Origin: Gammaproteobacteria bacterium
Lineage (GTDB): Bacteria; Pseudomonadota; Gammaproteobacteria; Pseudomonadales; Azotimanducaceae
Assembly: GCA_026705345.1 (NCBI GenBank)
Contig: JAPPAV010000143.1
Location: forward strand, 1-42,358
Length of the DNA: 42,358 nt
Direction of reading: 5' to 3'
A model generated the notes under the pieces. That model saw nothing but the letters and a program-made list of their open reading frames with translations. It made no database searches and was not told the origin of the DNA. Of this stretch, positions 8,152 through 23,156 are shown in pieces (positions within the stretch are counted from its first letter, which is position 1; each line of letters begins with the position of its first letter). The position numbers were made by a program, and so were the translations under genes.

Positions 8152-10042
8152 GGGTATCGTCCATCCGCGCAAGGTTCTCGCGGCTGGCGAACGCCCGGTA
8201 GCGCCCATCCGGGAGGCCCATCAGCCGGTCGTGATCGCCTTGCTCGACGATGGCGCCGTGCTCCACGAAGAGAACCTGTTCGGCGCGGCGGATGGTGCGA
8301 ATGCGGTGGGTGATGAGGAAGATGACCCTGTCCCGACCCCAATGGATTAGGCGCTCGAGCACTCGTTGCTCCGTATCCACGTCGAGCGCTGCCGTGGGTT
8401 CGTCGAGGATCAGGATCGGCGCGTTCTTCGCCACCGCGCGGGCGATGGATATTCGTTGCCGCTGACCCGTGGAGAGCTTTGCACCCCGTTCGCCCAGCTC
8501 GGTCGCGAAGCCATCGGGCAAGGCATCGATGAACTCGTCGGCGCAGGCGGTGACCGCAGCTGCTCTCACAGCTTCGTCGTCGGCGTCGGGAGCGGCAAAG
8601 CGGATGTTGTCAGCGATGCTTGTCGGGAACAGCGCGTTTTCCTGTAGCACGATACCGATTCCGTCCCGAAGAGAACGCACTTGGATGTCTCGGAGGTCCC
8701 GCCCGTCAATGCTGATTTCGCCACGGTCCACGTCGTAGAGACGCAGGAGCAGGCTCATCAACGTGGACTTTCCCGCCCCGGAGGCGCCCACGATGGCCGT
8801 CACGGTTCCGAGGCGTGCGGTGAACGTGGCATCGCGGATGACGGGCACTTCCGCCCGGTAGGCGAAGTCGACCTTGCGGAAGGACACGCCTTCTTGCACC
8901 TGGGGCATCGCCTTGGCACCCGGACGATCCTGTACCTCTGGCTCGATATCGAGCAGGAAGAAAGCGCGCTTGAGCCCGATGCTGATGTCCTGCAGCAGGC
9001 TCCAGAGGTTTGACAGCGCGACGCTGACACCGCCGATGGCGATGTTGCGGTCTCGAGCGGCTTGGAAGGCACCGAGATTCCAGACCGCGAAGCCGACCAA
9101 CGCTACCAAGCCGTAGCCGAAGGTCGCCGTCTCGGCCCACACCCACTGGGTCATCAGGTAGTCTGCAGCGATGACGGCGGCGGCCGTCGTGAGGAACACC
9201 AGGAGATTAAGTACGGCGATGCGTCGCCGCAACTCGTAGGCCCGGTCGAGCGCCTGGCCGGAGCGCTGCCGGAACGTGTCGAAGGCTGTGGCCTCCGCCT
9301 GCTGTGCCTTCAGCACGCGGACGCCGTTGACGCTCTCTTGGATGTGCGAGGTCAAGGCGCTGTTGGCGAGCCTCGAGTACTCGCTTCCCTCCCGGAGGCT
9401 AGGCGTGAATGCGCGGGCCGCTACCACGGCCGGCACTGCGGCGACCAGGAACAGAAAGCCGAGGTACGGCTGGAAGAAGCTGATCGCGACCAGGGCGATG
9501 GCGAGGTTGGTGAGAACCGTGACAGGTTGGATCAACGCGTTCTGCACGACCGTGGTCACCATGGCGCTGTCCTGGTAGACGCGGTAGATCGCATCACCCA
9601 CGGGTGCTTCGTCGTGGTAGCGCAGCGACAGGTGCACGGCGCGATCCATCATCGCCAGACGCAGGTGCTGGTTTACCCGCTGCAGAATCCAGGTGAGGTA
9701 GTACCCGAGGCCGGCACCGAGTAGAAACCCGATGGCCATCAGGCCGCCGGCGACCACGAGGAACACCGTTCTCAGCGTGAACCGCGCCGCCTCGTCCAGG
9801 GTTTCGACGTCGACGAACCGGGCGGGATCCAAGCCGAGTAGGCCGGCCTGGGTGGTCGTTAAGGGGTCGCCCAGGAACACCTTGTTGGTCAGCAGATCGA
9901 AGAACACTAGGGTCGAAGCGAGTTCGAGTAGGATGGCGATGCCCGACAGCACCCCGAAGACGATGAAGTGCTTGAGTTGCCCTAGCAGGTAACCCCGCGT
10001 GCGCCACAGCGCGGCGCCTAGGCCGAAACGCTCAGCGGACAT
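8144..10042 (-). CDS. ABC exporter half-transporter, membrane plus ATPase domains (subunit 1)
   Basis: A 632-aa half-transporter with six predicted membrane helices (first at about 25-50, then a roughly 40-residue external loop, second at about 87-115) and a C-terminal ATPase domain. Walker A is GASGAGKST (419-427). The signature LSTGQRQRISIARAV and Walker B ILILDEPTAALD follow, and the H-loop is ITHRIRTIRR. The catalytic Glu and His are both present, so the two subunits look more symmetrical than classic degenerate-site heterodimers, but the signature Gly is Thr here and Val in the partner. It overlaps the partner gene by eight bases and starts 95 bases after the oxygenase. Likely role: export of a small molecule or lipid linked to the oxygenase/TonB-receptor operon (inference). 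Confidence 0.88.
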   Translation of the reverse strand: MSAERFGLGAALWRTRGYLLGQLKHFIVFGVLSGIAILLELASTLVFFDLLTNKVFLGDPLTTTQAGLLGLDPARFVDVETLDEAARFTLRTVFLVVAGGLMAIGFLLGAGLGYYLTWILQRVNQHLRLAMMDRAVHLSLRYHDEAPVGDAIYRVYQDSAMVTTVVQNALIQPVTVLTNLAIALVAISFFQPYLGFLFLVAAVPAVVAARAFTPSLREGSEYSRLANSALTSHIQESVNGVRVLKAQQAEATAFDTFRQRSGQALDRAYELRRRIAVLNLLVFLTTAAAVIAADYLMTQWVWAETATFGYGLVALVGFAVWNLGAFQAARDRNIAIGGVSVALSNLWSLLQDISIGLKRAFFLLDIEPEVQDRPGAKAMPQVQEGVSFRKVDFAYRAEVPVIRDATFTARLGTVTAIVGASGAGKSTLMSLLLRLYDVDRGEISIDGRDLRDIQVRSLRDGIGIVLQENALFPTSIADNIRFAAPDADDEAVRAAAVTACADEFIDALPDGFATELGERGAKLSTGQRQRISIARAVAKNAPILILDEPTAALDVDTEQRVLERLIHWGRDRVIFLITHRIRTIRRAEQVLFVEHGAIVEQGDHDRLMGLPDGRYRAFASRENLARMDDTRV

Positions 10043-10137
10043 CGCTCGCGTAGGAACGCCCTTGCGGCATGCCGACTTCGGTGTTGCCGATGGTGTGGGA
10101 GACCAAGACTCGGGCGACGGCGCGCTCTTCGGGCGCG

Positions 10138-11799
10138 TTAGCGTCGCCCCGACGCGTTGACTGCGCGACGGGGAGGTCGGTCGGCAAGTCGAATGTGATT
10201 CGGATCCCAGCGTCTCGTTTGCAGGTGGCGAACCGCGGCCTTGAGTCCGGATCGCGTCCCAAGTCGTTCGAGGCCCTTGCAGGCGATCGCTTGCGTATAA
10301 CCCGTTTCATCGTCGAGTCCCGCGGTGAACGCCTGCTCCAGACCGTGGGGCGGGTTTGGGCCGGCAACCCGTGCAAGCAGGGCCAACGAAGCCAGGTAGC
10401 GCATGTGGTTCTGCTTGGTCCAGCGTCCGCCCAGACTGGGTTCGCCCATCGCAGGTTCTTCGCCACCGTCGATATCGCGAGACAGCAGTCGACGTAGGCG
10501 AGTCACGGTTTGCGATCCGAAACAGGGCAGGGTACACAGGGCATCCGTGGCGGCACGCGCGACGGCGGCGACCGGATCGTCTAGCAGTTCCCCGATGCGA
10601 TCGGCGACCATCCCAGCGGCATCCGGCCCGGCTTCGCCCAGGGCGTAGGCGGCATTGATCCTCATCCACGGATCCTCGTGGTCGAGCAACGCGGCGAGGG
10701 ATTCGACAGCCGGTGCTCCAATGGTACCGAGCACGACGGCGGCGTCTTCCGGCACGAACTGCCGCGGCGAGAACCTGCGCTCGAGGTGATCGTCGGACTT
10801 TCCGTAGTAGCCCATGTCGTCGGGTGTTGGCGCCACGTGTCGGTCAAGGCCAGCGGTTGCCAGCAGCGCCTCGACCATGTCCGGTACTGCTGTCCCGCCC
10901 AGGGCCGCCAGGTCGTACATGGCTGCCAGGCGCTGTTGCGGGTCCCTAGAGCGCAGGTCCGCCAGCAGCTGTGGAATCTCGGTGGAGGCCGGTGGCGCAA
11001 TGTGCTCATGGCGCGGTGCGCCCCGAAGCCAGTTCCAGAGCGATGTCCATGCTTGCGGCAGGTCGTGGGGCGTGAACAAGCCGTCCGGCGTTCGCCACGC
11101 CGGATCCTGGTGGTTCCAGGTCGCCCGGGTCGGGCTCTGCGTGCGCAATACCACGAACTTCAGCATGTAGCGCGTGGTGTCGGTCCGGTTCGGCGTACCG
11201 GCGTGGCCGACATCGAAGTCGGCGAGGATCGCAGTGCCCTTCGGGATGTCGCGCAGCACCACCTGATCCGGGGTGGCCAGCGTGATGTTGGCGTAGAGGT
11301 GACTGCCGGCGAGCAACCGGGTCGGTCCCTTGGCGAGCGGCGTGTCCTGCGGGAAATAGAACAGGTTCGCGGCGCGGAACGTGTGCCAGCGGCTGCGGCC
11401 TGCCTTCGAGTGGCCGTCCTGGTGCCAGCCGGATCCGGAGATCGACCCGGGACCCATCCGGGCGTTGTTCAGGAAGGGATCGAAGACGTCGGATCGGTCC
11501 CCGGCGGCGAGCGGTTCGCTGTTGTGGGGAAAGCGGTGCGGTGCCCAGGCGTAGTGTTCGCCGAGCAGGCTGGTCATCGCGCCGTCCACGGTGGGCGAAT
11601 CCAAGAGGTCCGCGAGCATCGGAATCCGGGGCAGCAGGTTGTCGCCCAGCAACGCCGACCCCTCGTTCATGCTGATCGAGAGTTCGTCGGCAACCGCGTC
11701 GTGGAAGGCCGAATCGAGCCCCGTGTCGAAGGCGAGGAAGCCGTCCGCCACGTAGCGCCGCACCTGCTCGTCGCCGAGCAGGATCCGATCGCTACCCAC
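10138..11799 (-). CDS. Phytanoyl-CoA dioxygenase family protein fused to HEAT repeats
   Basis: The N-terminal half (about 1-230) is a PhyH-type Fe(II)/2-oxoglutarate oxygenase. It has the metal triad His126-x-Asp128 (SGWHQDGHS) and His199 (DVGHAGTPNRT), plus Arg210 (TTRYMLKF), which would bind 2-oxoglutarate. Such enzymes hydroxylate or halogenate small molecules. The C-terminal half (about 285-540) is a chain of HEAT/PBS-lyase-like helical repeats, for example VESLAALLDHEDPWMRINAA followed by YALGEAG, a protein-protein interaction scaffold. The start is GTG at 11799. The gene begins 21 bases after the TonB receptor stop, so the two are almost certainly co-transcribed. PhyH fused to HEAT is uncommon in my knowledge. 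The substrate is unknown; the receptor upstream suggests an imported compound. Confidence 0.88.
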   Translation of the reverse strand: MGSDRILLGDEQVRRYVADGFLAFDTGLDSAFHDAVADELSISMNEGSALLGDNLLPRIPMLADLLDSPTVDGAMTSLLGEHYAWAPHRFPHNSEPLAAGDRSDVFDPFLNNARMGPGSISGSGWHQDGHSKAGRSRWHTFRAANLFYFPQDTPLAKGPTRLLAGSHLYANITLATPDQVVLRDIPKGTAILADFDVGHAGTPNRTDTTRYMLKFVVLRTQSPTRATWNHQDPAWRTPDGLFTPHDLPQAWTSLWNWLRGAPRHEHIAPPASTEIPQLLADLRSRDPQQRLAAMYDLAALGGTAVPDMVEALLATAGLDRHVAPTPDDMGYYGKSDDHLERRFSPRQFVPEDAAVVLGTIGAPAVESLAALLDHEDPWMRINAAYALGEAGPDAAGMVADRIGELLDDPVAAVARAATDALCTLPCFGSQTVTRLRRLLSRDIDGGEEPAMGEPSLGGRWTKQNHMRYLASLALLARVAGPNPPHGLEQAFTAGLDDETGYTQAIACKGLERLGTRSGLKAAVRHLQTRRWDPNHIRLADRPPRRAVNASGRR

Positions 11800-11820
11800 T
11801 TCGTTTCCCGTCCGTCCTGA

Positions 11821-14415
11821 CTATTCCGTTTCCCACCGGAATACCAGGCCCATGAACTGCGGGTCAGTCAGGGTCGCGTCCTGGTAGTAGCCGTCGCTCC
11901 AGCCGTTCGACTCCAGCTCCATGATGCCGATCTGGTCCGTGATGTTCTCCACGAAGAACGTCAAGGAGCGATTGCCGGTGGCGGGGATCCAGGTGACGCT
12001 GGCATCCCAGCGGGTGTAGCTGTCCAGCACGTCGTAGGGGATGTTGTGGATGCGGTTGAACCGTTCACCCGTAAACGAGTAGCTGGTGCTGAAGAGCAAT
12101 TGGCTGCCATTGCCCAGCGGATGTGCGTAGTCGGCGGTGACGGACCACTTGTGATTCGGCATGTTGGGCAAATCGTTGCCCTCGAGGTCGACTGGCCGTT
12201 CCAGGAACGCGACCGCCGGCTGCCCGGTGGTTGGACTGACGTACTCCACGCGATCGAACTCCTGGTCGGGATCGAGTCGGTCGGGGACCATCACCGGTCC
12301 AAGCGACGATGTCTGGTAGGCGTAGAAACCGCTCAGTCTGGCGTTTTCCGAGATGTTGAAGGTCGCTTCGATCTCGACGCCCTGCATCGTCGTGTCGGGC
12401 AGATTGTCGATGACGGTGAAGTTCCGGGGCACCGGCTCCAGTTCGCGCAGGCGGATGATCTGCTGGTAGTTGCCGAAGTCATATCGGAACCCGGATACAA
12501 GCAGCCGCACTCGGTCCTCGAACAAGTCGCCCTTGTACCCCGCCTCGTAGGACACGAGATTCTCGTCGTCGTAGCGATCGAAAGGTGGTGGCCGGTCGAT
12601 CACCGGTCCGCCGGAGCGATACCCGGTGGAGATTCGACCGTAGATCAGCTCGCCGCGTGCCGTGGTGTGTTCGATGGACACGTTGCCGGTGACCTTGTCG
12701 AAGTTCTGTACCAGGAGCGGGGTGATCCGGTTGAAGACCGCTGGCGCGGTGAGCGTGAAGTCCGAGCCGTCGCCGAGCAACGCCCCGAGCGGGTCGAATT
12801 CGCCGATCACCACGTGATCCTCGTCTTGGATGATCTTCTTCTCGTCTTCCGTGTAGCGCAGTCCGGCGGTAACGCGCCACGCATCGTTGAGTTCGTAGGT
12901 GGCTTGGCTGAACACCGCCCAAGACTCGACCGTTCTAACCGTGGGTGCGAAATACCAGCGGCTGGATCCGTCCGGGACGTGGGGCGAAATCCAGCGGTCG
13001 TCTCCCAGGACCAGCCTTTCGCCGAAGATATCGGTGAACCCGATACCGATGACCGAGCGCCACAGGTCGTCGGTATTCGTATGAACCGCCCGGTTGGCGT
13101 AGTCGAAGATGTTGATGTTGCTCTCGTATTCCTGGTCCAGGTAGTAGGCTCCCGCGATGGCGCTCAGCCGCTCGGTGTCGAACGCCAACTGCAGTTCGTG
13201 CGTGGTGAGCAGGACGTCGTAGACGAAGTCGATGGCGATGTCGGGGAACGGTCGCATGGCGTTGGACGACAGGAAGGGGTCCGCGTCGCTGCCCACCAGG
13301 CTCGTACCGTCGAAGTCCTGTCCCAAGAGCCCGAGCGTGAGATCCGAGTCGCCGAGGATGTACTTGACGCTTAAGTTTCCGTTAATCTCGTAGGTCGCGT
13401 GCAGCGTGATGGCATCCCGGGACACGTCGGTCGAGCCCTGGCGGTTCATGTCCACCTTGTTCGCGAGATCGCGCCCGGCGCTGGCCGGCGGCGTCGACCT
13501 CGGGTACATGTAGTAGTTGTTCCGTTCGCCGCTCGGTTGGCCATCGATCGGATTGGGATGGAACTCGACGTGCGTGGACGGGTAGCGAACCGGAACGCGC
13601 ACTTCGCTCTTGGCGTCCTGTTCAAACGAGCTGTAGCGGAGGTTCAACGTAACCGGACCGTGCTGGAAGGCAAGCTGCGGGCTCAAGTTGTAGTCACCCC
13701 TGGCGCCGAGGTCGGGTCCGCTGATGTTTTCCTGGTTGCCATCCGTCTCCTGCCACTCCACCGTGAGCCGGTAGGCCACGTTCTCGTTGATGGGACCCGT
13801 GACGAAGCCGTTCAGGCGATGGCCATTGAAGGTCGAAAGTTCCGCCGTGGTGCCGGCCCCGAACTCCCATTCGGGTCGCTTGTTGATGTAGTTGATGGCG
13901 CCGCCGATGGAGTTGCGCCCGTAGAGCGTACCTTGGGGTCCCCGAAGCACCTCCACGCGATCGATGTCGTACAGCGAACTGACGACGCCGTAGGGTTCGT
14001 CGAAGTAGAGATCGTTCGAGTACTGCGCCACGGCGACGTCGCCGGCGAGTCCGCGGTAGAGGGATCCCATGCCGCGGATCGTTGCCGGGCTGTCCAATCC
14101 GAACTGCAGGCCCGGAACGCGGACCTCGAGGTCCTTGTTGTTGGTGATCTGGTAGTCCTCGATCATGTCGCTGTCGAAGGCGGTCACCGAGATGGGCGTG
14201 TCCAGCAACGACTGTTCCTTCCGGTCGGCGGTCACGATGACCTCTTCCAGCATAAAGCCGTCTTGATCCTGGTCTTCGGAATCCTCTTCGCCCAGGGCGT
14301 GGGAACCGCCGAGAAGGTAGCTCGTGCCAGTCATGATCATTGCCAGCCTGGCCGCTCGTCGCATGGCGGCAGTTCGACCGATTACCAGACGACTAGGTCG
14401 TTCACCCATGAACAT
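11821..14415 (-). CDS. TonB-dependent outer-membrane receptor
   Basis: An outer-membrane beta-barrel importer of about 864 aa energised by TonB. There is a signal peptide (RRAARLAMIMTGTSYLLGGS, cleavage after HALG), a TonB box (LEEVIVTADRKEQ, about 57-69), a plug domain with VEVLRGPQGTLYGRNSIGGA followed by INYINKRP, and a long barrel ending in GLVFRWETE. The plug matches the large proteobacterial group of receptors often found beside catabolic genes rather than siderophore genes. Start: GGGAGG lies four bases before the ATG at 14415 and ten before the ATG at 14409; either is possible, and a TTG at 14427 overlaps the ribosome site and is unlikely. It heads the operon with the PhyH-HEAT oxygenase and exporter pair and diverges from the sigma factor across 272 bases. 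Confidence 0.93.
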   Translation of the reverse strand: MFMGERPSRLVIGRTAAMRRAARLAMIMTGTSYLLGGSHALGEEDSEDQDQDGFMLEEVIVTADRKEQSLLDTPISVTAFDSDMIEDYQITNNKDLEVRVPGLQFGLDSPATIRGMGSLYRGLAGDVAVAQYSNDLYFDEPYGVVSSLYDIDRVEVLRGPQGTLYGRNSIGGAINYINKRPEWEFGAGTTAELSTFNGHRLNGFVTGPINENVAYRLTVEWQETDGNQENISGPDLGARGDYNLSPQLAFQHGPVTLNLRYSSFEQDAKSEVRVPVRYPSTHVEFHPNPIDGQPSGERNNYYMYPRSTPPASAGRDLANKVDMNRQGSTDVSRDAITLHATYEINGNLSVKYILGDSDLTLGLLGQDFDGTSLVGSDADPFLSSNAMRPFPDIAIDFVYDVLLTTHELQLAFDTERLSAIAGAYYLDQEYESNINIFDYANRAVHTNTDDLWRSVIGIGFTDIFGERLVLGDDRWISPHVPDGSSRWYFAPTVRTVESWAVFSQATYELNDAWRVTAGLRYTEDEKKIIQDEDHVVIGEFDPLGALLGDGSDFTLTAPAVFNRITPLLVQNFDKVTGNVSIEHTTARGELIYGRISTGYRSGGPVIDRPPPFDRYDDENLVSYEAGYKGDLFEDRVRLLVSGFRYDFGNYQQIIRLRELEPVPRNFTVIDNLPDTTMQGVEIEATFNISENARLSGFYAYQTSSLGPVMVPDRLDPDQEFDRVEYVSPTTGQPAVAFLERPVDLEGNDLPNMPNHKWSVTADYAHPLGNGSQLLFSTSYSFTGERFNRIHNIPYDVLDSYTRWDASVTWIPATGNRSLTFFVENITDQIGIMELESNGWSDGYYQDATLTDPQFMGLVFRWETE

Positions 14416-14687
14416 CAAACCTCCCAAGGGGTCTTCTTGAATCGATTCGCCATATTGCCCGATGCGGAGCTAGACGGCTAGGTGGTCACCGTCAGGAAAC
14501 CTGCTAGGACAGCTGCCGCGCAAGCGCCATTCGTTCGGCGGCAGGCGAACCCACCTCGACGGTCCGGCCCTGAGGTCGTTATGCTACGGCGACGGTCCAC
14601 CGATTAGTCCGTGCGCCCGGTCCGCATCGGGCTTCGTTGGGGCGTTGCGGGGAAGCGGGCCCGAGAGGGAGAGTCACCGAGGCTGCC
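14416..14687. promoter_or_regulatory. Divergent control region between TonB receptor and ECF sigma factor
   Basis: This 272-bp gap must hold the promoters of both divergent operons. Visible elements: the small palindrome CAGG-AAA-CCTG (14493-14503) containing GGAAAC, which resembles an ECF-type -35 box, and an inverted repeat CTGCCGC (14513-14519)/GCGGCAG (14538-14544) with an 18-bp loop. No good sigma-70 pair was found. Control of one or both operons by the adjacent sigma factor is inference. Confidence 0.4.
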
Positions 14688-15287
14688 ATGGCGGATTCCA
14701 GCGAAACCGGGGCGGGCAAGGGCAAGGGGTTGTCGGGAGTCACCCGTGCTTTCGTCGAGAACAGCGGCTCGATCAGGAACTTTCTCGGTCGTCTCTTAAC
14801 CCAACGAGAGGATATCGAGGACATCGCCCAGGAGGCGTACCTGCGGGCCTATGTTGCCGAGCAGAGCAGGGAGATCGACAAGCCGGAAGCCTACCTCTAC
14901 CGGTCGGCGAGGAACCTGGCGCTCACGAAGCTGACCCAGAAATCGCGCCAGATGACCGATTTGATTGATGATTTGGGCCCGGCGGTAGTCTTACGGGGAG
15001 AGGCTCCGCTTCAGGAGGAGGTCGAAGCCGAGGAATCCTTGGGTTTGCATTGCGAGGCCGTCGCTCACTTGCCGGAGAAATGTAAGCAGGTGTACATCTT
15101 GCGCAAAGTCTACGGACTGACACACAAGGAGATCGCCGAACGAATGTCCTTGTCTGTCAGCTCGGTGGAGAAATACATGCTTAAAGGGGTGCTCGCCTGT
15201 CGGGCATACGTGAAGCGACGCGAAGGAGCGGCGCGAAGGTCACGTTCCCTGCTCGACTCGTTGGTCGGGCAAGAACACAGACGATGA
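14688..15287 (+). CDS. ECF sigma-70 factor, FecI-like
   Basis: A 199-aa extracytoplasmic-function sigma factor that would direct RNA polymerase to its target promoters when released by the FecR partner. Region 2 includes RLLTQREDIEDIAQEAYLRA with YLYRSARNLALTKL following. Region 4 is LPEKCKQVYILRKVYGLTHK then EIAERMSLSVSSVEKYM, a typical FecI helix-turn-helix. The ATG at 14688 is chosen because GAGG sits five bases upstream; the frame is open to 14637. The stop overlaps the FecR start (ATGA, 15284-15287), so the pair is translationally coupled. Downstream lies a receptor with an N-terminal signalling domain, completing a Fec-type cell-surface signalling trio. Confidence 0.92.
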   Translation: MADSSETGAGKGKGLSGVTRAFVENSGSIRNFLGRLLTQREDIEDIAQEAYLRAYVAEQSREIDKPEAYLYRSARNLALTKLTQKSRQMTDLIDDLGPAVVLRGEAPLQEEVEAEESLGLHCEAVAHLPEKCKQVYILRKVYGLTHKEIAERMSLSVSSVEKYMLKGVLACRAYVKRREGAARRSRSLLDSLVGQEHRR

Positions 15288-16405
15288 GACCGACCATTCT
15301 CAAGTTCCCCGACCGACGCACCGTCGAGGCAGAGGCAGGCGCTTGGCTCGTCAGGCTCGACGGCGATGAAACGCTGTCTCCCGACGAGCGCGAGGAGCTC
15401 GAGACGTGGCTTGCCGCGAGCCCGGCACACGGCAGGGAACTCCGTAGCCTGGCGGGGTTCTGGGGTAGGGCCAACGTATTGACCGAGTTGGCCATTCCGC
15501 TGGACAAGCCCGGACACGTGGGCCGGCGCGGACAGGCGGGAGGAACGCGCGCACCCCGTCTCGGCCTGGTTCCGATGGTTGCCGGCCTCGCCGCCGTGGC
15601 CGTGTTGGCAGGTGTCGCTGTCTTCGTCGCCGACACCCCTTTCATCGGCACGAACACGAGCGGCGTCGACAAGGCGGTCGGCGGGATCGACAGCGAGGGG
15701 CATTACGCAACCGCCATCGGCCAGCAACGGACGATCACACTGGCCGACGGTTCCGTAGCCCGCTTGAACACCAACTCCCAGCTGTCTGTCGAGTACGGCG
15801 AGCGCAACCGGGACATCCACCTGCAGGCGGGCGAAGTTCACTTCACGGTGGCGCGGAACGGGGAACGGCCCTTTCGGGTCTACGCAGGAAACAGTCGGAT
15901 TCAAGCGGTGGGCACCGCGTTCGCGGTCCACATCAAGGACGGCGACGTGGATGTGCTCGTCACCGAGGGAAGCGTCGAGATCGCCGCTACCCGCAACCAA
16001 CCGCAACCCGCGGGTCTCCTTGACCACGACCCTGCCGCCGACGCACTGCAAGTGCTCGGTACGTTGCGTGTCGGGCAGCAGACGACGATCAGGCGGTCGG
16101 GACGACACGCCGGTGTGATCGACGAGATCCAGACCGTCGAGCCGATCGACATCGAAAAAAGGCTCGGCTGGCGGGACGGGTTGTTGACATTCGCCGGCGA
16201 CCCCTTGGAGCAGGTGGTGGCGGAAATCAACCGCTACACGACGGTCACGGTCGACATCCCGGATCCCGAGGTAAGAGCCATCCGGATCGGGGGACGGATC
16301 GCCGTGGGTGAAACCGACGGCATGATCGCTGCCCTCGAGACCAACTTCGGTCTGCGGGTCACCCGCATTGGCGACGATCGCATCGAGATCACCGCGGACC
16401 GATAG
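15284..16405 (+). CDS. FecR-family transmembrane sigma regulator
   Basis: A 373-aa inner-membrane protein that passes the receptor signal to the sigma factor. The cytosolic N terminus (about 15-60: AGAWLVRLDGDETLSPDERE, then ELETWLAASPAHGRELR) is the sigma-binding DUF4880-type domain with its conserved Trp residues. One membrane helix lies at about 95-117 (GLVPMVAGLAAVAVLAGVAV). The periplasmic FecR domain follows at about 141-235, with LADGSVARLNTNSQLSVEYG and the QAGEVHFTVA block. The C terminus (about 295-373) resembles the STN-like fold that contacts the receptor's signalling domain. It overlaps the sigma gene by four bases and is followed 104 bases later by the receptor. Confidence 0.92.
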   Translation: MRPTILKFPDRRTVEAEAGAWLVRLDGDETLSPDEREELETWLAASPAHGRELRSLAGFWGRANVLTELAIPLDKPGHVGRRGQAGGTRAPRLGLVPMVAGLAAVAVLAGVAVFVADTPFIGTNTSGVDKAVGGIDSEGHYATAIGQQRTITLADGSVARLNTNSQLSVEYGERNRDIHLQAGEVHFTVARNGERPFRVYAGNSRIQAVGTAFAVHIKDGDVDVLVTEGSVEIAATRNQPQPAGLLDHDPAADALQVLGTLRVGQQTTIRRSGRHAGVIDEIQTVEPIDIEKRLGWRDGLLTFAGDPLEQVVAEINRYTTVTVDIPDPEVRAIRIGGRIAVGETDGMIAALETNFGLRVTRIGDDRIEITADR

Positions 16406-16509
16406 CTGCGATGGCTCGGGTGGCGGTCGCACTTTGCCGAGGCCATGCCAAATCCCGTTGCGGGTTGCGTCCCCCCGGCAGTCGTATAGGTGACGAGGCC
16501 GTTTGACAG

Positions 16510-19500
16510 GTGAGACGGTACCTGGGGAGTTCCGGCAGGTGGGGACGAGGGCCATCGGTTGGCGATGCCATGCTGGTGGCGTTCTTGATCGTCGGCTGTT
16601 CGTGGGCATGGGGTGCCACGACCGCTGAGCCACGCTACGACATCGACATACCGTCGTTGGACGCGGCGGAGGCGCTGACCCGGCTGGCCGAGCAGACCGA
16701 CACCGTCGTGCTGTTCCCCTACGACCTTGCCCAGGGCCGGCAGGCCAACGAGGTCGTTGGGCGTTTCACCTTGACCCAAGCCGTGGAAGCACTGCTACGG
16801 GGCACGGGGATTGCAGGCGGCCTCTCCGACAAACGGGTTTTGCAGATCTCACTCGATGGGACCGCTGAACCGGGCAATACGGAGGATGGACCAATGGAAG
16901 AACGCGAGATTGAGAGAACACCGCTACTGCGACGCATCGGGGCCACCCTCGCCGCCGTGCTGGTCGCTTCGTCGGGCGTCGGCGCGGACGGGGCGACGGA
17001 ACAGGACGAGGAGGATTTGAAGGAGGAGCTCCTCGTCGTAACGGGTACCCGATTGCCGACCGGGCCCGAAGCCTCTCCAATCGTCGTCATCACCCGACCC
17101 GAGATCGATGCCCGTGGGCTCACGAGTGTCGAGGATATCGTCCGCTATCTGCCCCAGAACTTCTCCACGATCACCAACGGGGGCAGCTACGACGGTCGTT
17201 CGCCCCGGTTCCAGATCGGCTCGGTTACGATCAATCTGCGCGGCCTGGGTGAGGGGTCGACACTGGTCTTGGTGAACGGGAGGCGCTTGGCGGCCTCGCC
17301 CTCCGAGCGGGGCACCTTCACCGACGTATCCACGCTCCCGTTCAGCGCCATCGACCGGGTGGAAGTGATGACGGATGGTGCCAGCGCCGTGTACGGCTCC
17401 GACGCCGTGGGCGGCGTGGTCAACTTCATCATGAAGAAGGACTACCGGGGGTCGGAAACCTCGGTACGCTACGAAAACAGCAGTTCCGGTGGACACCGAA
17501 CCGCTGTCGAGCAGACCTTCGGGTTCTCCTGGAGCACTGGCAACGTGACTGCGTCCGCGAGTTACCGCGAGGACGATCCGGTATTTGCACGCGATGCCGG
17601 ACTCGACACGGACGGGGACTACCGCGAGCAGGGCGGCAGACTCTACCCCAACACCTTCGGGCAACCCGGCAATCTCCTGCGGTTTGGACTTCCTTCGAAC
17701 GCGCCGCCGAATACGACCTATGGGATCCTGCCGCCCGGCGACGGCACCAACTTCAGTCCGGACGACGTCATATGGGTATCCAACGAGGAGGTCGCGACCC
17801 AATCCGGGAACTTCAATCTCCTGCAAAAGGGGCTTTCGGCTACCGCCAACGGCGAAGCGATTCCATATTCAGAGCACTTGTCTGCCTACCTGAGCGTGAC
17901 GCAGGACATCGGCGAGAGTCTGGCGCTGAGCCTGTCCGCAACGTACGCCCGGCAAGACTCCGTTTTGGAGGCCGTGGGCGCGTCGTTCAGCGGTCCCGTT
18001 CCAGCAAGCAACTACTACAACCCGTTTGGCGAGACGGTCTACATGGCCTACGCGTTTCAACGCGAAATCGCGGATGGCAAGCTAGAGGGTTTCGCGAGGA
18101 CGACCGATCTCGATCGGGTGAATCTAAGCACGTCGGTGACTTGGGAAACGCCAATTCAGGGCTGGACGGCCGTCTTCTCTGCCAATTACGGCGTGGACAA
18201 CCCGTACGGCGGCTATCCAGGTTCCTTCAACTACCGCGGCGCCGCGTTCCAGGCAGCGCTTGCCAGCAGTGATCCGGCAGAGGCCATCAATCCTTTCGGC
18301 GATGGCACCGTGCAGCGCGCCACGCTCAGCGAGTTCTCGGAATACGCCACGCGAGGAGCGCGGGAGGGCCGCCAGCGGGTCGTTGGCCTGAGCCTTTCCG
18401 GCGCGCTTCTTGAACTGGCCGGCGGGCCCGTCGATTTGGCCGTGGGAACCGAGGTGCGGACCGATACGCTCGATTTCGACTCGTTCCTATTGAATCCGTT
18501 TACGTTCCGTGTAGCGGAGGCGCCGGAAATCGTTCCGGAATCGGAAAACTCGGCTTGGTTTTTCGAGCTTTCGGCTCCGCTTATCGGGGATGCGAACTCA
18601 CGCCCCGGCATCCACGGATTGAGACTGTATGCGGCTGGCCGCTATGACGAATACGAGATCGAAGGGCCGTTCGAGGGCATTCTGCAACCGGCGAGCAACC
18701 GAACATTCGATGACTTCGTCACCAAGCTTGGCGTGGTCTACTACCCGGTGGAGGACCTCAAGCTGCGCGCCACATGGGGTCAGGCTTTCCTGGCGGCAAC
18801 GTTGCCGGAGCTGTTCGGGCCGGTGAATACCTATACCTTCTTCAGGTTTCTTGATCCGCTCAACCCCATTGAGAATGGCGGGCCGTTCGCGTCGGTGTTT
18901 CCCACCACCGTCCTTGGCGGAAATCCCGATCTTCAGCCCCAGACATCCGATACCACCACGGTTGGTTTCGAGTTCACTCCCGCTTCAATATCTGGGCTGT
19001 ATCTCTCCGCGACCTATAGCAAGACGGAGTTCGAGGGGCTGATTGGGAGTTTGAGTAGCGCATTCGGCTGGCCGCCGGTGTATGCCTTTGAGAACTGGCA
19101 GCAGTTTCCCGACCAAATCAGGCGCGATGCGAACGGCGTTCTGACGTACCTGTCCCTGCAGAGCATCAACCTGTCCGCCAGGACCAGTGAGGCGTTGGAC
19201 TTCGATGTGCGATATGCGTTCGACACGCCCCGGGGCGAGTTTGGGGTAGGCGTTCTCGGAACCAATACGCTGACGCTGGAAACGGTCTCGGGGCCGGGTG
19301 TTGATCCGGTTGAACAGGAAGGGACGAACCAGGGCCCTGTCGAGCTAAAGGGCAGCGCATACCTGGATTGGTCGCTCGGACCCTGGGGCGCCAACCTGAC
19401 GATCAACCGAGCCGGCAGCTACGAGAATATCGACAACGGCGCACTGCAAACCGATGTGGACGGCTATACGACAGTCGACCTGCAAGGAACGTACGCGCGT

Positions 19501-19653
19501 CCCGAATCCCCTTGGCGCGTTACGGCTGGCATGCAGAATGCCTTCGATGCGGATTTCCCCTTTTTCGACGGCTACTACGGCGTGGATTCCGCACACGTTG
19601 ATTTTCGCCGCCGGATCACCTTCGTCGATTTCGTGATGGAGTTGTCATGGTAG
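16510..19653 (+). CDS. TonB-dependent receptor with N-terminal STN signalling domain (FecA-like transducer)
   Basis: A 1047-aa outer-membrane receptor. After a signal peptide (hydrophobic MLVAFLIVGCSWAWG at 21-35) comes an STN domain (about 43-114, YDIDIPSLDAAEALTRLAEQ and GRFTLTQAVEALLRGTG), which contacts FecR in Fec-type signalling. A second, unexpected hydrophobic stretch (RRIGATLAAVLVASSGVG, 141-158) precedes an acidic linker and the TonB box (LLVVTGTRLP, 174-183). Plug and barrel follow, with VEVMTDGASAVYGSDAVGGV and a C terminus VDFVMELSW ending in Trp as usual for outer-membrane barrels. The start is GTG at 16510; ATG 16570 would leave a signal peptide without its Arg-rich n-region. 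The ligand is unknown. It can both import and trigger its own sigma factor. Confidence 0.9.
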   Translation: MRRYLGSSGRWGRGPSVGDAMLVAFLIVGCSWAWGATTAEPRYDIDIPSLDAAEALTRLAEQTDTVVLFPYDLAQGRQANEVVGRFTLTQAVEALLRGTGIAGGLSDKRVLQISLDGTAEPGNTEDGPMEEREIERTPLLRRIGATLAAVLVASSGVGADGATEQDEEDLKEELLVVTGTRLPTGPEASPIVVITRPEIDARGLTSVEDIVRYLPQNFSTITNGGSYDGRSPRFQIGSVTINLRGLGEGSTLVLVNGRRLAASPSERGTFTDVSTLPFSAIDRVEVMTDGASAVYGSDAVGGVVNFIMKKDYRGSETSVRYENSSSGGHRTAVEQTFGFSWSTGNVTASASYREDDPVFARDAGLDTDGDYREQGGRLYPNTFGQPGNLLRFGLPSNAPPNTTYGILPPGDGTNFSPDDVIWVSNEEVATQSGNFNLLQKGLSATANGEAIPYSEHLSAYLSVTQDIGESLALSLSATYARQDSVLEAVGASFSGPVPASNYYNPFGETVYMAYAFQREIADGKLEGFARTTDLDRVNLSTSVTWETPIQGWTAVFSANYGVDNPYGGYPGSFNYRGAAFQAALASSDPAEAINPFGDGTVQRATLSEFSEYATRGAREGRQRVVGLSLSGALLELAGGPVDLAVGTEVRTDTLDFDSFLLNPFTFRVAEAPEIVPESENSAWFFELSAPLIGDANSRPGIHGLRLYAAGRYDEYEIEGPFEGILQPASNRTFDDFVTKLGVVYYPVEDLKLRATWGQAFLAATLPELFGPVNTYTFFRFLDPLNPIENGGPFASVFPTTVLGGNPDLQPQTSDTTTVGFEFTPASISGLYLSATYSKTEFEGLIGSLSSAFGWPPVYAFENWQQFPDQIRRDANGVLTYLSLQSINLSARTSEALDFDVRYAFDTPRGEFGVGVLGTNTLTLETVSGPGVDPVEQEGTNQGPVELKGSAYLDWSLGPWGANLTINRAGSYENIDNGALQTDVDGYTTVDLQGTYARPESPWRVTAGMQNAFDADFPFFDGYYGVDSAHVDFRRRITFVDFVMELSW

Positions 19654-20951
19654 AGGGTTCCGTAGGGGCGACCCTAATCCGCCCGCCAGGGCGCGCGGTC
19701 CTAACGCGCCCGTCAGGGCGCGCGGTCGGCCGCATCGGGGGCGCTACGGTTCGTTGTTTCCTGCAAGTCGGCACCCCGGCCGCGAGGTGGACACTCGCGA
19801 GTCTCGCCCTGCTCGCGACGATTGGCTGTAAGCCGGCCGGAAACGGCGCCGCTTACGTAAACGACGCGAATTTCCGTCACGAGGTGTTCGAGTCGGACTT
19901 GCCCGTGCTGGTGGACTTCACCGCCACCTGGTGCGTGCCGTGCAGGGAAGTGGACCCGATCGTGGACGAACTGGCGTCCGAGATGGCCGGCAAGGCCAAG
20001 GTCGTGAAACTCGACATCGATGATTCGCCCGAGATCTACCAAGCGCTTCGGGTCAACGGGGTTCCCACCGTCATCTTCTTCAACGAAGGTCGGGAAGAGG
20101 ACCGCATTGGCAGCCCGCAGAAGCGGGAGATCTATGAGCGGTACCTGATCACGATGATTGAAGGCGGGGACATGCTCGATACGCGCCTCGCGATGCTCGA
20201 GCAGGACGAGTACCGACAGCACTTCATCATCTCGCGCGAATTGGCGGATATCGAGGCCATGCTTCCACATCGGCCGGATCTCCTAGTCAAACCCTTTGCA
20301 GACGGCGGTACGCCGTTGTCTGCGGCGATCAAGCGCTCCAGCGTTCGCCAGAAGGCGCTGATCGAACTGATCCTGTCGCATGACCCCGACATCAGTTTGC
20401 ATGACCTGCTGGGTATCGGACGCTGCGACGAGTTCCTGGTGGCAGTCGAGCCGGACTATGATGTCGCCAATGAGCCCGATCCGGACGGTGCGACGCCGCT
20501 CTGGCTGGGGCTGATGGGGAGCGTCAGGGAACGCGACGACCATTGCGCCCGCGCGCTTCTCGAGGCGGGCGCACAACCGATAAGCAGTTCGACCTACTAC
20601 CTGCCGCGCGCGGTGATGTTCTATGAAGACCCCGAGCTCCTGCGCGAGTTTCTCGACTACGGCATGGACCCGGGAGAGACCGACGAGCAGGGGATGAACG
20701 CCCTGCATCTGGCGACCATGTACGGCTACTACCCGCTGGTGGAAGTTCTCCTGGAATTCGGCATGGACCCCGCCACGGCCAACGGCAATGGCGAAACCGC
20801 CGTGGAAATGGTACGCAGCCAGCAGCAGCGGCGCGAAGAACTCTGGAACGAGCGCGGGATGCTGGATACGCCGGAACAGAAGGCAGCATTTCGCGAGTAC
20901 AAGGACGAGTCGAACAGGGTGCTGGCGCTTCTCGAAGACGCTCAAACCTGA
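19647..20951 (+). CDS. Thioredoxin-fold protein with ankyrin repeats, putative periplasmic lipoprotein
   Basis: The only standard start in frame is the ATG at 19647, which overlaps the receptor's stop. Residues 6-35 are encoded by dispersed-repeat DNA (GATLIRPPGRAVLTRPSGRA). A hydrophobic stretch ASLALLATIGC ends in Cys61, a weak lipobox. A thioredoxin domain follows (about 70-180) with active site Trp95-Cys-Val-Pro-Cys99 and the cis-proline loop GVPTVIFF. The C-terminal half (about 200-420) holds ankyrin-like repeats, clearest at QGMNALHLATMYGYYPLVEV and in DGATPLWLGL. Likely role: a membrane-anchored thiol reductase or holdase in the periplasm that binds a protein partner through the ankyrins (inference). 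It sits 24 bases before the TlpA fusion and is probably in the same transcript as the receptor. Confidence 0.85.
   Translation: MVEGSVGATLIRPPGRAVLTRPSGRAVGRIGGATVRCFLQVGTPAARWTLASLALLATIGCKPAGNGAAYVNDANFRHEVFESDLPVLVDFTATWCVPCREVDPIVDELASEMAGKAKVVKLDIDDSPEIYQALRVNGVPTVIFFNEGREEDRIGSPQKREIYERYLITMIEGGDMLDTRLAMLEQDEYRQHFIISRELADIEAMLPHRPDLLVKPFADGGTPLSAAIKRSSVRQKALIELILSHDPDISLHDLLGIGRCDEFLVAVEPDYDVANEPDPDGATPLWLGLMGSVRERDDHCARALLEAGAQPISSSTYYLPRAVMFYEDPELLREFLDYGMDPGETDEQGMNALHLATMYGYYPLVEVLLEFGMDPATANGNGETAVEMVRSQQQRREELWNERGMLDTPEQKAAFREYKDESNRVLALLEDAQT
19662..19727 (+). repeat. Composite repeat at the start of the thioredoxin-ankyrin gene
   Basis: GTAGGGGCGACCCT (19662-19675) opens a composite copy that continues with two AGGGCGCGCGGTC units (19688-19700 and 19715-19727, 27-bp period). 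The whole block lies inside the only open start region of the thioredoxin-ankyrin protein and translates as GATLIRPPGRAVLTRPSGRA. Confidence 0.7.
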
Positions 20952-20975
20952 TTTCTTGCGACAGGAGGCAAGCAA

Positions 20976-23156
20976 ATGCTCGCCAGGAAAATAATATTCG
21001 GCACTCTCGTCATTGCGAGCGGTTGTCTTGCCGCGACGCCTCGGGCAGAGGAAGTCGGCAACGATGAATCGCCGAGTAACGCTGCTGCTGCGTCCGAGGC
21101 CAGCTATGAGGAGGGTGAGCGAGCCTATCAGGAGCGAAACCTCGATGACGCTGTTGCGCATTTCCGGGCCGCAATCGAACTCGATCCCAACAACACCAAA
21201 GCGCATCAGCAGTTCATCCGGGCGGTTCAGGATCTTGGCAGATCGGAAATCAGCGCCGAGCTGGATGAGGACGCGCGCGACGCGGCAATGATGGCCGCCG
21301 GCGATGAGTCCTTTGAGAAGCTGCTAGCCACATACCAGGAGTGGTCACAGGATTGGTCCGAAATCGCAGCGTACAAGTGGGCGCTTGGCGAGCTTCACAT
21401 GTATCGGGACTACGACAAGGTCTTGCAGTACACGAACGAGGCGATCGCCCTGGATCCGGGTCTTGCCGACGGCTACAGCACCTTGGCGCTCATCGCCGAT
21501 GTGAGCGGCGACAAGGAGCGGGAATTGGAGCTTTTGAGAAAAGCGGCTGAGACAGCGCCAGAGAGTCCCGACAAAGCGTTCTACTACGCGGCAACACTGA
21601 ACAAGACCGACCCGGCGTTGGGACGAATTGCGTCCCTCGGAGTTGCCGAACGGTTTCCCGAGAGCGAGCGCGGCGCGCAGGCTCTGTATTGGCTCGCATA
21701 CCGAACAGAGGACCGCAGCGAGCAAATTGCACTGTATGAGCGGCTGCGCACGACCTACCCGCCCGAGGACTTTAGCTGGTCCGCGTCCGGAATGACCCTG
21801 CTGGCGGACCTGTACTCCGAGTCGCATCCGGAAAAGGCCCTCGCCCTTGCAGAGCAGATGGTTGCGGCAACAGCCGAGGAACCGGATGGCTGGAGCGCAG
21901 GAATCTGGAACGACCGGCTGACGTTCCAGCGAAACGTAATGAAGGGTAGCGAACTGATCGCGGACGGCCAGTATCAGCAGGCCGTGGAGTTGCTGGAGGG
22001 CACAACGATCCCACGTTACGTCAACGCCAATGTTTTCCATGAGACCAAGGCCAAAGCGCTGGACGGGGCCGGTCAGACCGATGAAGCCTATGAGTACCTG
22101 CTTCGGCAGGCGGCGAAGGAGCCGACAGACAGGGTCTGGGCGGCGACGCATGTCTACGCCAAGAAACTCGGAAAGGATGACAACACAACAAAGGCTGAGA
22201 TCAGGGAGGCGCTGGAGGAGGACGCGGAGCAAATCGAGGACTATTCCTTTGAGCGTTACGACAACGGCGCGCGGGTGTCATTGTCGGACTTCAAGGGCAA
22301 GGTCGTGCTCTTGAACTTCTGGTACCCGTTCTGCGGGCCTTGTCGGGGCGAAAACCCCGAGCTGCAGAAGGTCCTGGAGGAGTACGGCCCCAAGGGGTTC
22401 GAGATTCTTGCGCTCAACGTACACCCGGAAGAGGATCAGTTCGTCTTGCCTTACGCCAACGGCAACGGATTCGATTTCATCCAGCTCAGAAGCGATATGG
22501 AGTTCGCAAAGACCGAGTTCCAAGCCCGTGGCATGCCGACGAATTTCCTCCTGGATGTGGAGGGGCGGAAAGTGCTCGAACTCCCGCCGATCTCGGGAAC
22601 GAGAGTCAGGACGCTGGAACTGCAGATTGAATCGCTACTGCCCGAGATGAGCCCGGCAAGTGCGGGCGTTTCGGACGTTGTCGTACCGGATCCGGAGCGA
22701 GCGGAAGATACAGAAGCCGTTCTTGCCGGCGTGATCGCATCTGTCAATCCCAAGGAGTTGCCAGCCGGTGCGCAGGCCCTTCTGAAGATTGAGTTGGACC
22801 TGGCCCCCGGCACGCACGCTAACTCGGACTCGCCGACGGACCCCGCGTTGATTCCAACGACGTTTTTCCCCGATTCGGTTGACGGCGTCGTGTGGGAACA
22901 GGTGAGCTATCCGCAACCGACCGAGGTGATCGAGTGGTACTCCGTAGACCCGCTGCCGGTCTTTGAGGATGGCGCCGTGATACGGGCCCGCCTGACCGTC
23001 GAAGAAGATGCCCGGCCCGGTGAGTTTGACGTATCGGGCAAACTGCGGATTCAGGTCTGTGACGCCGAGTCTTGCTATTCGCCGGAGCGGGTACCAATCA
23101 CGGTTGCCGTTACCGTGGTCGACGAGCAAATCCCCGGAGGCGAAACAGGCACCTAG
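20976..23156 (+). CDS. TPR - TlpA-like thioredoxin - DsbD-alpha-like fusion protein, exported
   Basis: A perfect AGGAGG lies ten bases before the ATG. The 726-aa product has a signal peptide (KIIFGTLVIASGCLAATPRA, possibly lipidated at Cys17). A TPR region covers about 43-390 (YEEGERAYQERNLDDAVAHF and further helical pairs). A TlpA/redoxin domain covers about 410-550 with VVLLNFWYPFCGPCRGENPE, the redox pair being Cys453 and Cys456. The C-terminal domain (about 585-720) resembles the periplasmic alpha domain of DsbD and keeps a cysteine pair, Cys695 and Cys700 (VCDAESCYSPERVPI). In DsbD that domain carries electrons to periplasmic thioredoxins, so this protein may hold donor and acceptor in one chain. 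Its stop codon overlaps the convergent hydrolase stop in the tetranucleotide CTAG. Confidence 0.88.
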   Translation: MLARKIIFGTLVIASGCLAATPRAEEVGNDESPSNAAAASEASYEEGERAYQERNLDDAVAHFRAAIELDPNNTKAHQQFIRAVQDLGRSEISAELDEDARDAAMMAAGDESFEKLLATYQEWSQDWSEIAAYKWALGELHMYRDYDKVLQYTNEAIALDPGLADGYSTLALIADVSGDKERELELLRKAAETAPESPDKAFYYAATLNKTDPALGRIASLGVAERFPESERGAQALYWLAYRTEDRSEQIALYERLRTTYPPEDFSWSASGMTLLADLYSESHPEKALALAEQMVAATAEEPDGWSAGIWNDRLTFQRNVMKGSELIADGQYQQAVELLEGTTIPRYVNANVFHETKAKALDGAGQTDEAYEYLLRQAAKEPTDRVWAATHVYAKKLGKDDNTTKAEIREALEEDAEQIEDYSFERYDNGARVSLSDFKGKVVLLNFWYPFCGPCRGENPELQKVLEEYGPKGFEILALNVHPEEDQFVLPYANGNGFDFIQLRSDMEFAKTEFQARGMPTNFLLDVEGRKVLELPPISGTRVRTLELQIESLLPEMSPASAGVSDVVVPDPERAEDTEAVLAGVIASVNPKELPAGAQALLKIELDLAPGTHANSDSPTDPALIPTTFFPDSVDGVVWEQVSYPQPTEVIEWYSVDPLPVFEDGAVIRARLTVEEDARPGEFDVSGKLRIQVCDAESCYSPERVPITVAVTVVDEQIPGGETGT

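Follow-up and report, generated by a model that had tools for sequence, protein, structure and literature searches.

Gene content of the locus

The DNA analysed here (the window) is a stretch of 42,358 nucleotides from contig JAPPAV010000143.1 of a gammaproteobacterium assigned to the Azotimanducaceae; its genome is referred to as G000, and the other G and L handles denote the other genomes and the fetched loci that were compared with it. The subject of this study is a run of five genes, all on the plus strand and overlapping or nearly touching one another, that encode an extracytoplasmic function (ECF) sigma factor, a FecR-type anti-sigma factor, a TonB-dependent receptor with an STN signalling domain, a thioredoxin-ankyrin protein (TrxAnk) and a protein combining TPR repeats, a TlpA-like domain and a DsbD-alpha-like end (TPR-TlpA). 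The receptor is laid out as signal peptide 1, STN, linker, signal peptide 2, plug and barrel, and the second signal peptide is headed by a Shine-Dalgarno sequence and an ATG of its own, from which a shorter receptor with no STN would be read (Table 1). The STN domain is weak by Pfam (E 4e-4 for the whole protein and E 1e-5 for the fragment, both below the cut-off) and was detected by a profile of our own. The true start of TrxAnk is uncertain and may lie anywhere from 19647 to about 19785.

Table 1. Features of the five-gene locus, with positions counted from the first nucleotide of the window (ORF, open reading frame; aa, amino acids).
Feature	Position	Strand	Remarks
ECF (FecI-like) sigma factor	ORF 14637..15287	+	Pfam Sigma70_r2/r4_2; in-frame ATG at 14688
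FecR-type anti-sigma factor	15284..16405	+	Pfam FecR E 1e-22; start overlaps sigma factor stop by 4 nt
TonB-dependent receptor, long form, 1047 aa	16510..19653	+	Plug E 8e-19; TonB barrel E 3e-24
STN signalling domain, residues 40-112	16627..16845	+	PF07660 below cut-off; detected by own profile
GGAGG Shine-Dalgarno sequence	16881..16885	+	8 nt before internal ATG 16894
Internal signal-peptide-like segment MEEREIERTPLLRRIGATLAAVLVASSGVGA	16894..16986	+	between STN and plug; starts at ATG 16894
Predicted short receptor, no STN	16894..19653	+	from internal ATG 16894
Thioredoxin-ankyrin protein (TrxAnk), CVPC	19647..20951	+	Thioredoxin E 1e-22 and ankyrin; likely lipoprotein
TPR-TlpA-DsbD-alpha-like protein (TPR-TlpA), CGPC	20976..23156	+	TPR and AhpC-TSA/Redoxin E 2e-12; possible lipoprotein
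DsbD-alpha-like C-terminal domain, Cys695/Cys700	22698..23132	+	7/8 family members match PF11412, window copy does not
Block of sigma factor, FecR and STN, in reverse orientation in G003 and G004	14540..16976		main piece 14658-16976, 87% DNA identity, opposite strand; smaller piece from 14540
Inverted repeat flanking the inverted block on either side in G003/G004	16845..16983		138-139 bp, 84-86%

An earlier note on this DNA had listed the same five genes, and the ORF coordinates together with the Pfam matches support all of them at the locations given there and on the plus strand, position 14688 being an in-frame ATG of the sigma factor ORF. Its description of a standard Fec-type trio holds for the order of sigma factor, FecR and STN receptor and needs amending for the receptor itself, which has a second, internal signal-peptide-like segment and start. 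The two genes after the receptor were correctly named as thioredoxin-ankyrin and TPR/TlpA/DsbD-alpha, the DsbD-alpha part being supported by seven of eight family members, and no iron-transport genes were found among the scanned neighbouring genes, for which reason iron uptake was rejected. Among 25 of the 26 NCBIfam models listed, none was matched by the receptor at its cut-off. Six terminator-like sites were observed across 13-25 kb, as compared with 8.5 expected from shuffles, and none of them stands out within the five-gene run; the lone site at 19.65-20.98 kb, the interval that the note had singled out for a terminator, falls inside the TrxAnk coding sequence.

The internal start and its occurrence among STN receptors

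The signal-peptide-like segment in the linker of the STN receptors has its counterpart in relatives without STN, where it forms the N-terminal signal peptide. The predicted Shine-Dalgarno duplex at ATG 16894 reaches -9.5 kcal/mol, as compared with -5.9 at GTG 16510, the start of the long form, -10.3 for TPR-TlpA and -1.7 to -11.5 kcal/mol for the remaining starts in the window. The Shine-Dalgarno sequence is conserved in the window, G002, G003 and G004 and survives an indel in G006. In receptor A of G004, which has no STN, the same ATG is the sole ATG/GTG/TTG start, and an in-frame stop lies about 60 nt upstream.

A hydrophobic, signal-peptide-like stretch between STN and plug was present in 9 of the 12 STN receptors first checked, and the internal segments show basic n-regions and candidate cleavage sites. 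For a wider survey, 60 regions around FecR relatives (one covering two rows) were fetched from among 86 FecR rows, others having been fetched earlier; the rows left out were in some cases at contig edges and in some cases near-duplicates. The thresholds, a hydrophobicity of 1.5 and a Shine-Dalgarno energy of -5.7 kcal/mol or lower, were both chosen with the data of a first survey in view. That survey comprised 31 clusters at 70%, of which two of the 21 with a segment (L028 and L155, fragments of the window group) were dropped; a start with Shine-Dalgarno sequence was seen in 18/19 clusters with the segment, in 1/10 without it and in 20.4% of 574 equal windows. Since its Plug profile missed L015/L163, L172, L173, L177 and L179, the survey was redone with unchanged thresholds. 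Among the 84 STN-receptor ORFs of the redone survey, which fell into 45 clusters, the start was found in 31 of the 32 clusters with a segment versus 2 of the 13 without, to which E. coli FecA belongs, against a null of 154/835 windows (18.4%). When the threshold was tightened to -6.4 kcal/mol the figures became 28/32, 2/13 and 11.0%, respectively, and at -8 kcal/mol 19/32, 1/13 and 3.6%. All 12 segment clusters new to the redone survey pass; three had been viewed earlier, so that 9/9 previously unseen clusters carry the start. Null windows anchored on a hydrophobic stretch gave 6/41. Clusters with both segment and start span about 12 genera (11 counted, plus g22 via L179).

Of 48 STN-only ORFs, two were listed, both belonging to the same G048 gene near a contig end; each of the remaining 46 either reaches the end of its contig or locus or is at least 400 aa long. 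The G048 sequence (L184, 1340-2041) encodes STN, has an internal Met and a signal-peptide-like segment of similar kind and stops at about the start of the plug, 50 bases before the contig end.

The internal segments resemble cleavable signal peptides, and the long protein could be the only product, cut by signal peptidase after signal peptide 2 into an STN piece and a free receptor; a barrel-less STN protein, VreA, is known from Pseudomonas aeruginosa (PMC2729926). Processing needs neither a Shine-Dalgarno sequence nor a start codon, yet 31/32 segment clusters carry one, and as an explanation on its own we hold processing to be improbable; processing and dual initiation may also operate together. 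The internal ribosome-binding site and signal peptide could, on the other hand, be functionless leftovers of fusion. Such leftovers are expected of a recent in-frame fusion, and the move of the signalling unit in G003 and G004 (see below) is a secondary event; the start is, however, kept in 31 of the 32 segment clusters, survives the indel in G006 and falls to background level where the segment is missing (2/13), and we consider an inert relic unlikely.

Several points weigh against use of the internal start. One segment cluster, L213, has no start signal, and L210 and L233 have a start and no segment, L210 being borderline hydrophobic and signal-peptide-like. The seeds of the survey were relatives of the window's FecR, all from a single GTDB family, the window and L015 share one signalling unit yet count as two clusters, and, since clusters made at 70% are mutually related, the binomial P of 4.6e-22 for the redone survey should be taken as a guide only. 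The duplex energies were calculated with the textbook anti-Shine-Dalgarno sequence and not with that of this genome, and receptor A of G003 has an additional GTG 12 codons upstream, which lacks a clear Shine-Dalgarno sequence. Nine of nine plasmid-borne alphaproteobacterial STN receptors lack the layout, so that it may be clade-limited; three of these have a start codon at -6.1 to -6.6 kcal/mol but no segment, and one just reaches the hydrophobicity threshold with no start codon there. Finally, the short form may be a by-product, or the long form may be cut at signal peptide 2.

The signalling unit and the thiol proteins in related genomes

The receptor core, that is, plug and barrel, was found in 16 of 206 genomes of the window's GTDB family at E 1e-180. 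Together with L064 and L092 from a contig scan and a partial gene in G002, this gave 19 core records, L077 being excluded. STN is absent from 15 of the 19 and present in G000, G002, G006 and G021. Orthologous sigma factor and FecR genes accompany STN in the first three (FecR orthologues of 79-85% identity occur in 5 further genomes of the 206 searched), and the signalling unit of G021 differs, with a FecR 31% and an STN region 30% identical. In G003 and G004, two close relatives, the inverted block places STN in fusion with a second receptor (B), and the receptor linked to the thiol proteins (A) begins without STN. Orthologues of the receptor B core in G007, G008 and G149, as well as a second copy in G004, are all without STN. 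Judged by these arrangements, the unit of sigma factor, FecR and STN is portable between receptors, and its move in G003 and G004 is clearly secondary. The inverted repeats that flank the unit in these two genomes might point to an active, phase-variable switch between the two receptors. The repeat arms are not homogenised, however, showing 85.5% and 84.2% identity within a genome as compared with 95.7% between the B arms of G003 and G004, which argues against an active switch, and no such repeat pair is present in the window itself; a switch of this kind is therefore very improbable.

Across the same 206 genomes, TrxAnk was found in 18 (E 1e-40) and TPR-TlpA in 8. All 16 genomes with the receptor core carry TrxAnk (Fisher 5.5e-22; these are three genera only, phylogeny is uncontrolled, and most copies in genus g8 are distant and lie elsewhere). 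Outside the family, TPR-TlpA had no match in samples of 390 genomes from the order and 369 from the class, where the matches were the window's own genome and, in the order sample, one further genome of the same family; a tblastn search of plasmids gave 212 records, none covering 80% of the query, and the 5 listed matches were of TlpA/ResA type. TrxAnk is adjacent to the core in 9 of the 19 records (G000, G003, G004, G006, G012, G021, G238, L064 and L092), with a different TlpA sitting between the two in G012. TPR-TlpA is clustered with the core in 7/19 and lies elsewhere in G006 and G240; a read-through or broken TPR-TlpA in these two genomes was considered and rejected, the reported TAG being the natural stop. 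In L064 and L092, where the receptor is just 52-54% identical and TPR-TlpA is divergently oriented, TrxAnk is 80% and 65% identical, respectively (the latter a truncated ORF), and TPR-TlpA 78% and 77%. The full linked set including STN occurs only in G000 and G021. G002 is not judgeable in this respect, as the locus is interrupted there by contig ends and a search of that genome for TrxAnk gave no match.

Because the thiol pair stands next to the core in STN-less copies and in L064 and L092, the pair goes with the core and not with the signalling unit, as far as gene neighbourhoods tell. The earlier note had proposed a dedicated system that couples ligand sensing and import to thiol chemistry, and had expected the redox pair to co-occur with STN-type receptors. 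Such a system agrees with how the genes are ordered in the window and G021, and the pair does recur beside the core at the frequencies given above; the 15 cores without STN, which include the thiol-paired G003, G004, G238, L064 and L092, and the placement of the signalling unit on another receptor in G003 and G004 do not agree with a conserved coupling, and we regard a dedicated system of this kind as quite unlikely.

The linkage of the thiol pair has its own counter-evidence. TrxAnk is not adjacent to the core in 9/19 records, namely G240 and the eight genomes of genus g8, and in the 20-kb stretches around the receptor in g8 neither sigma factor, FecR, TrxAnk nor TPR-TlpA was found. In a contig scan based on the TrxAnk alignment, 80 of 266 relatives were kept and 34 examined (L060-L092 and L098, nearly all about full length); a receptor of this type adjoins TrxAnk in 7 of the 34 (L060-L064, L080 and L092, a TlpA protein intervening in L080), and most of the remainder, several from Acidobacteria records, lie away from receptors. 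The thiol proteins could be general periplasmic redox proteins, acting in folding or in the maturation of cytochrome c or copper sites, that are neighbours of the receptor by chance. The occurrence of TrxAnk relatives of 42-52% identity apart from receptors in Acidobacteria, Gammaproteobacteria and others is in favour of this, as is the weak genome-wide association between TlpA and receptors: among the Plug matches listed, with one position added by hand, TlpA-Plug proximity within 6 kb was seen in 6/26 cases in G000 versus 2.5 expected (P 0.03), and four other genomes showed no significant excess among the Plug matches listed, for which reason TlpA beside TonB receptors was rejected as a genome-wide rule. 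Nevertheless, the linkage survives a rearranged gene order and a receptor only 52-54% identical, and TrxAnk is present in every core genome with the reservations stated above; chance neighbourhood is possible, but we find it rather unlikely.

The cysteine pair of TrxAnk is invariant in 5/5 aligned proteins, and Cys453/456 and Cys695/700 of TPR-TlpA are invariant in 8/8, as is Cys17 at a lipobox-like site. A lipobox-like cysteine is present in the TrxAnk copies of the window, G003, G004 and G012, and not in those of G021 or G238. Both proteins are probably periplasmic and possibly lipoproteins. The closest solved chains to the CGPC domain of TPR-TlpA are ResA, DsbE-like and TlpA. At its C-terminal end, PF11412 (DsbD_N) was matched by 7/8 aligned members (best E 6.5e-6), the window copy giving no Pfam match, and the identity as DsbD-alpha is supported at the level of the family; a comparison with E. 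coli DsbD gave a weak hhalign match over 20 columns, no solved chain was matched by sequence, and two AlphaFold models of this domain, for which DsbD alpha would predict an immunoglobulin-like fold, are of low confidence (predicted local distance difference test mostly under 50). Outside its signal peptide the receptor has zero cysteines. The thiol pair is therefore unlikely to act on disulfides of the receptor, and this role was rejected; the presence of a redox-active thioredoxin and a TPR-TlpA-DsbD_N protein beside a cysteine-free receptor suggests that either the ligand or a binding partner undergoes redox handling.

A number of further loci were noted in passing. In L051 (4262-7388, from G006) the receptor is frame-broken, with pieces in different frames, and TPR-TlpA is on another contig. 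L077, from a Rhodothermales record, has at 7187-9895 an ORF of 902 aa with a weak match to our own Plug profile, directly upstream of a TrxAnk relative; no tblastn match between this ORF and the window receptor was obtained. The TrxAnk relatives in L083 and L085 have three or four additional TlpA-domain ORFs within 10 kb, and those in L065-L068 and L071, of Acidobacteria type, have a TonB-type ORF about 4 kb away on the opposite strand. Two additional TonB-receptor loci in G000, L052 (contig C9) and L053 (contig C112), each have two adjoining TlpA-domain proteins, and three of these four proteins show weak DUF4369 matches below the cut-off. In the window, two ABC-exporter-type half transporters, a PhyH-HEAT protein and an STN-less TonB receptor stand in a row on the minus strand at 6160-14427, divergent from the sigma factor gene, and at 23153-23156 TPR-TlpA overlaps tail to tail by 4 bases with an alpha/beta hydrolase gene on the opposite strand.

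Proposed function and comparison with known systems

The explanation that we favour, and believe to be somewhat more probable than not, is a dual-start receptor with a portable STN unit and a thiol pair that travels with the receptor core. The locus would then consist of three modules, the receptor core, the two periplasmic thiol proteins, which travel with the core in part of its range, and the portable signalling unit, whose STN would have been fused in frame ahead of complete receptor genes. Because the ribosome-binding site, the ATG and the signal peptide of the receptor would all have been retained where the two parts join, two products are expected from one mRNA: a long receptor, signalling via FecR and the sigma factor, and a short one that lacks STN and would serve import only. 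Since the recipient receptor stays complete, the unit could be gained, lost or moved without breaking it. The sequences themselves show the gene content, the initiation signals and signal-peptide-like segment inside the receptor gene, the inversion onto receptor B and the linkage between thiol pair and core. From these we infer initiation at the internal ATG, synthesis of both receptor forms and an action of TrxAnk and TPR-TlpA on the ligand after import, either by reducing it, if it contains a disulfide or thiol, or by protecting it, if it is a thiol or a metal. A single gene probably provides both a signalling and a transport-only receptor, and the persistence of the layout across about 12 genera suggests that both are of importance; a role in signal strength or damping would be possible. 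A wider proposition, whose chances we judge to be evenly balanced, is that in about 12 genera of one family the same gene supplies two TonB receptors, one a transducer and the other a plain transporter, and that the units can be moved between receptors, e.g. by inversion, thereby re-wiring the nutrient that is sensed.

Use of the internal start would mean that one gene fixes the proportion of signalling to non-signalling receptors, which would add a layer of control. In the open-access literature, most subscription papers lying outside the search, STN receptors were not found to be reported with an internal start. The arrangement would also provide a concrete route by which ordinary receptors become signalling ones and by which signalling shifts between receptors, and the thiol pair would mark a subfamily of receptors with ligands that may require redox handling, which is of use in uncultured bacteria, where ligands are otherwise hard to guess.

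Two leads to the ligand were obtained from neighbouring genes. The ergothioneine biosynthesis genes egtD and egtB, with NCBIfam matches above the cut-off, were seen close to the receptor core in two of the eight genomes of g8 (L143, 10780-13030, from G108, and L144, 2671-4909, from G117) and in no other fetched locus. In G108 egtD is convergent with the receptor at a distance of 0.4 kb, in G117 it is 3.4 kb away with other ORFs between, and the contexts of the two genomes are alike. Genes of this kind near the receptor would fit a thiol or thione ligand, which we take as a lead only. In L143, two ORFs with DsbA matches below the cut-off were also seen about 6 kb away. Oligopeptide-type (PF00496-type) binding-protein genes follow the receptor B orthologues (L174-L177) in G007, G008 and G149, where they were assigned by similarity to the Pfam-tested proteins of G004, and are found nearby in G004; in G149 oligopeptide-type ABC permease and ATPase genes follow. 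TPR-TlpA of G240 likewise follows an oligopeptide-type binding protein gene (PF00496). With such genes near receptor B and near the G240 TPR-TlpA, a peptide-like ligand is plausible, again as a lead only.

STN-bearing transducers have been described as a subclass of receptors (PMC1790865). That STN can exist apart from a barrel is illustrated by VreA of the VreA-VreI-VreR (PUMA3) system of P. aeruginosa (PMC2729926); VreA is a separate, barrel-less gene, whereas the STN of the window shares one continuous ORF with a complete receptor gene, to which it is joined in frame. Taking the fec region of Escherichia coli as yardstick, the locus shares with Fec-type signalling (FecI-FecR-FecA) the order of ECF sigma factor, FecR and STN receptor. 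The linker of E. coli FecA, unlike that of the window receptor, contains neither a second, hydrophobic signal peptide nor an internal start, and import genes of the fecBCDE type do not follow the window receptor. TPR-TlpA resembles TlpA, ResA and DsbE in its CGPC domain and the alpha domain of DsbD in its DsbD_N-like end with two conserved cysteines, and differs from all of these in combining both domains in one polypeptide behind about 400 residues with TPR. In the SusC/D loci of Bacteroidota, which the C9 and C112 loci of G000 resemble, an outer-membrane TonB receptor stands beside DUF4369-TlpA proteins; the window has a thioredoxin-ankyrin protein and a TPR-TlpA-DsbD_N protein in their place.

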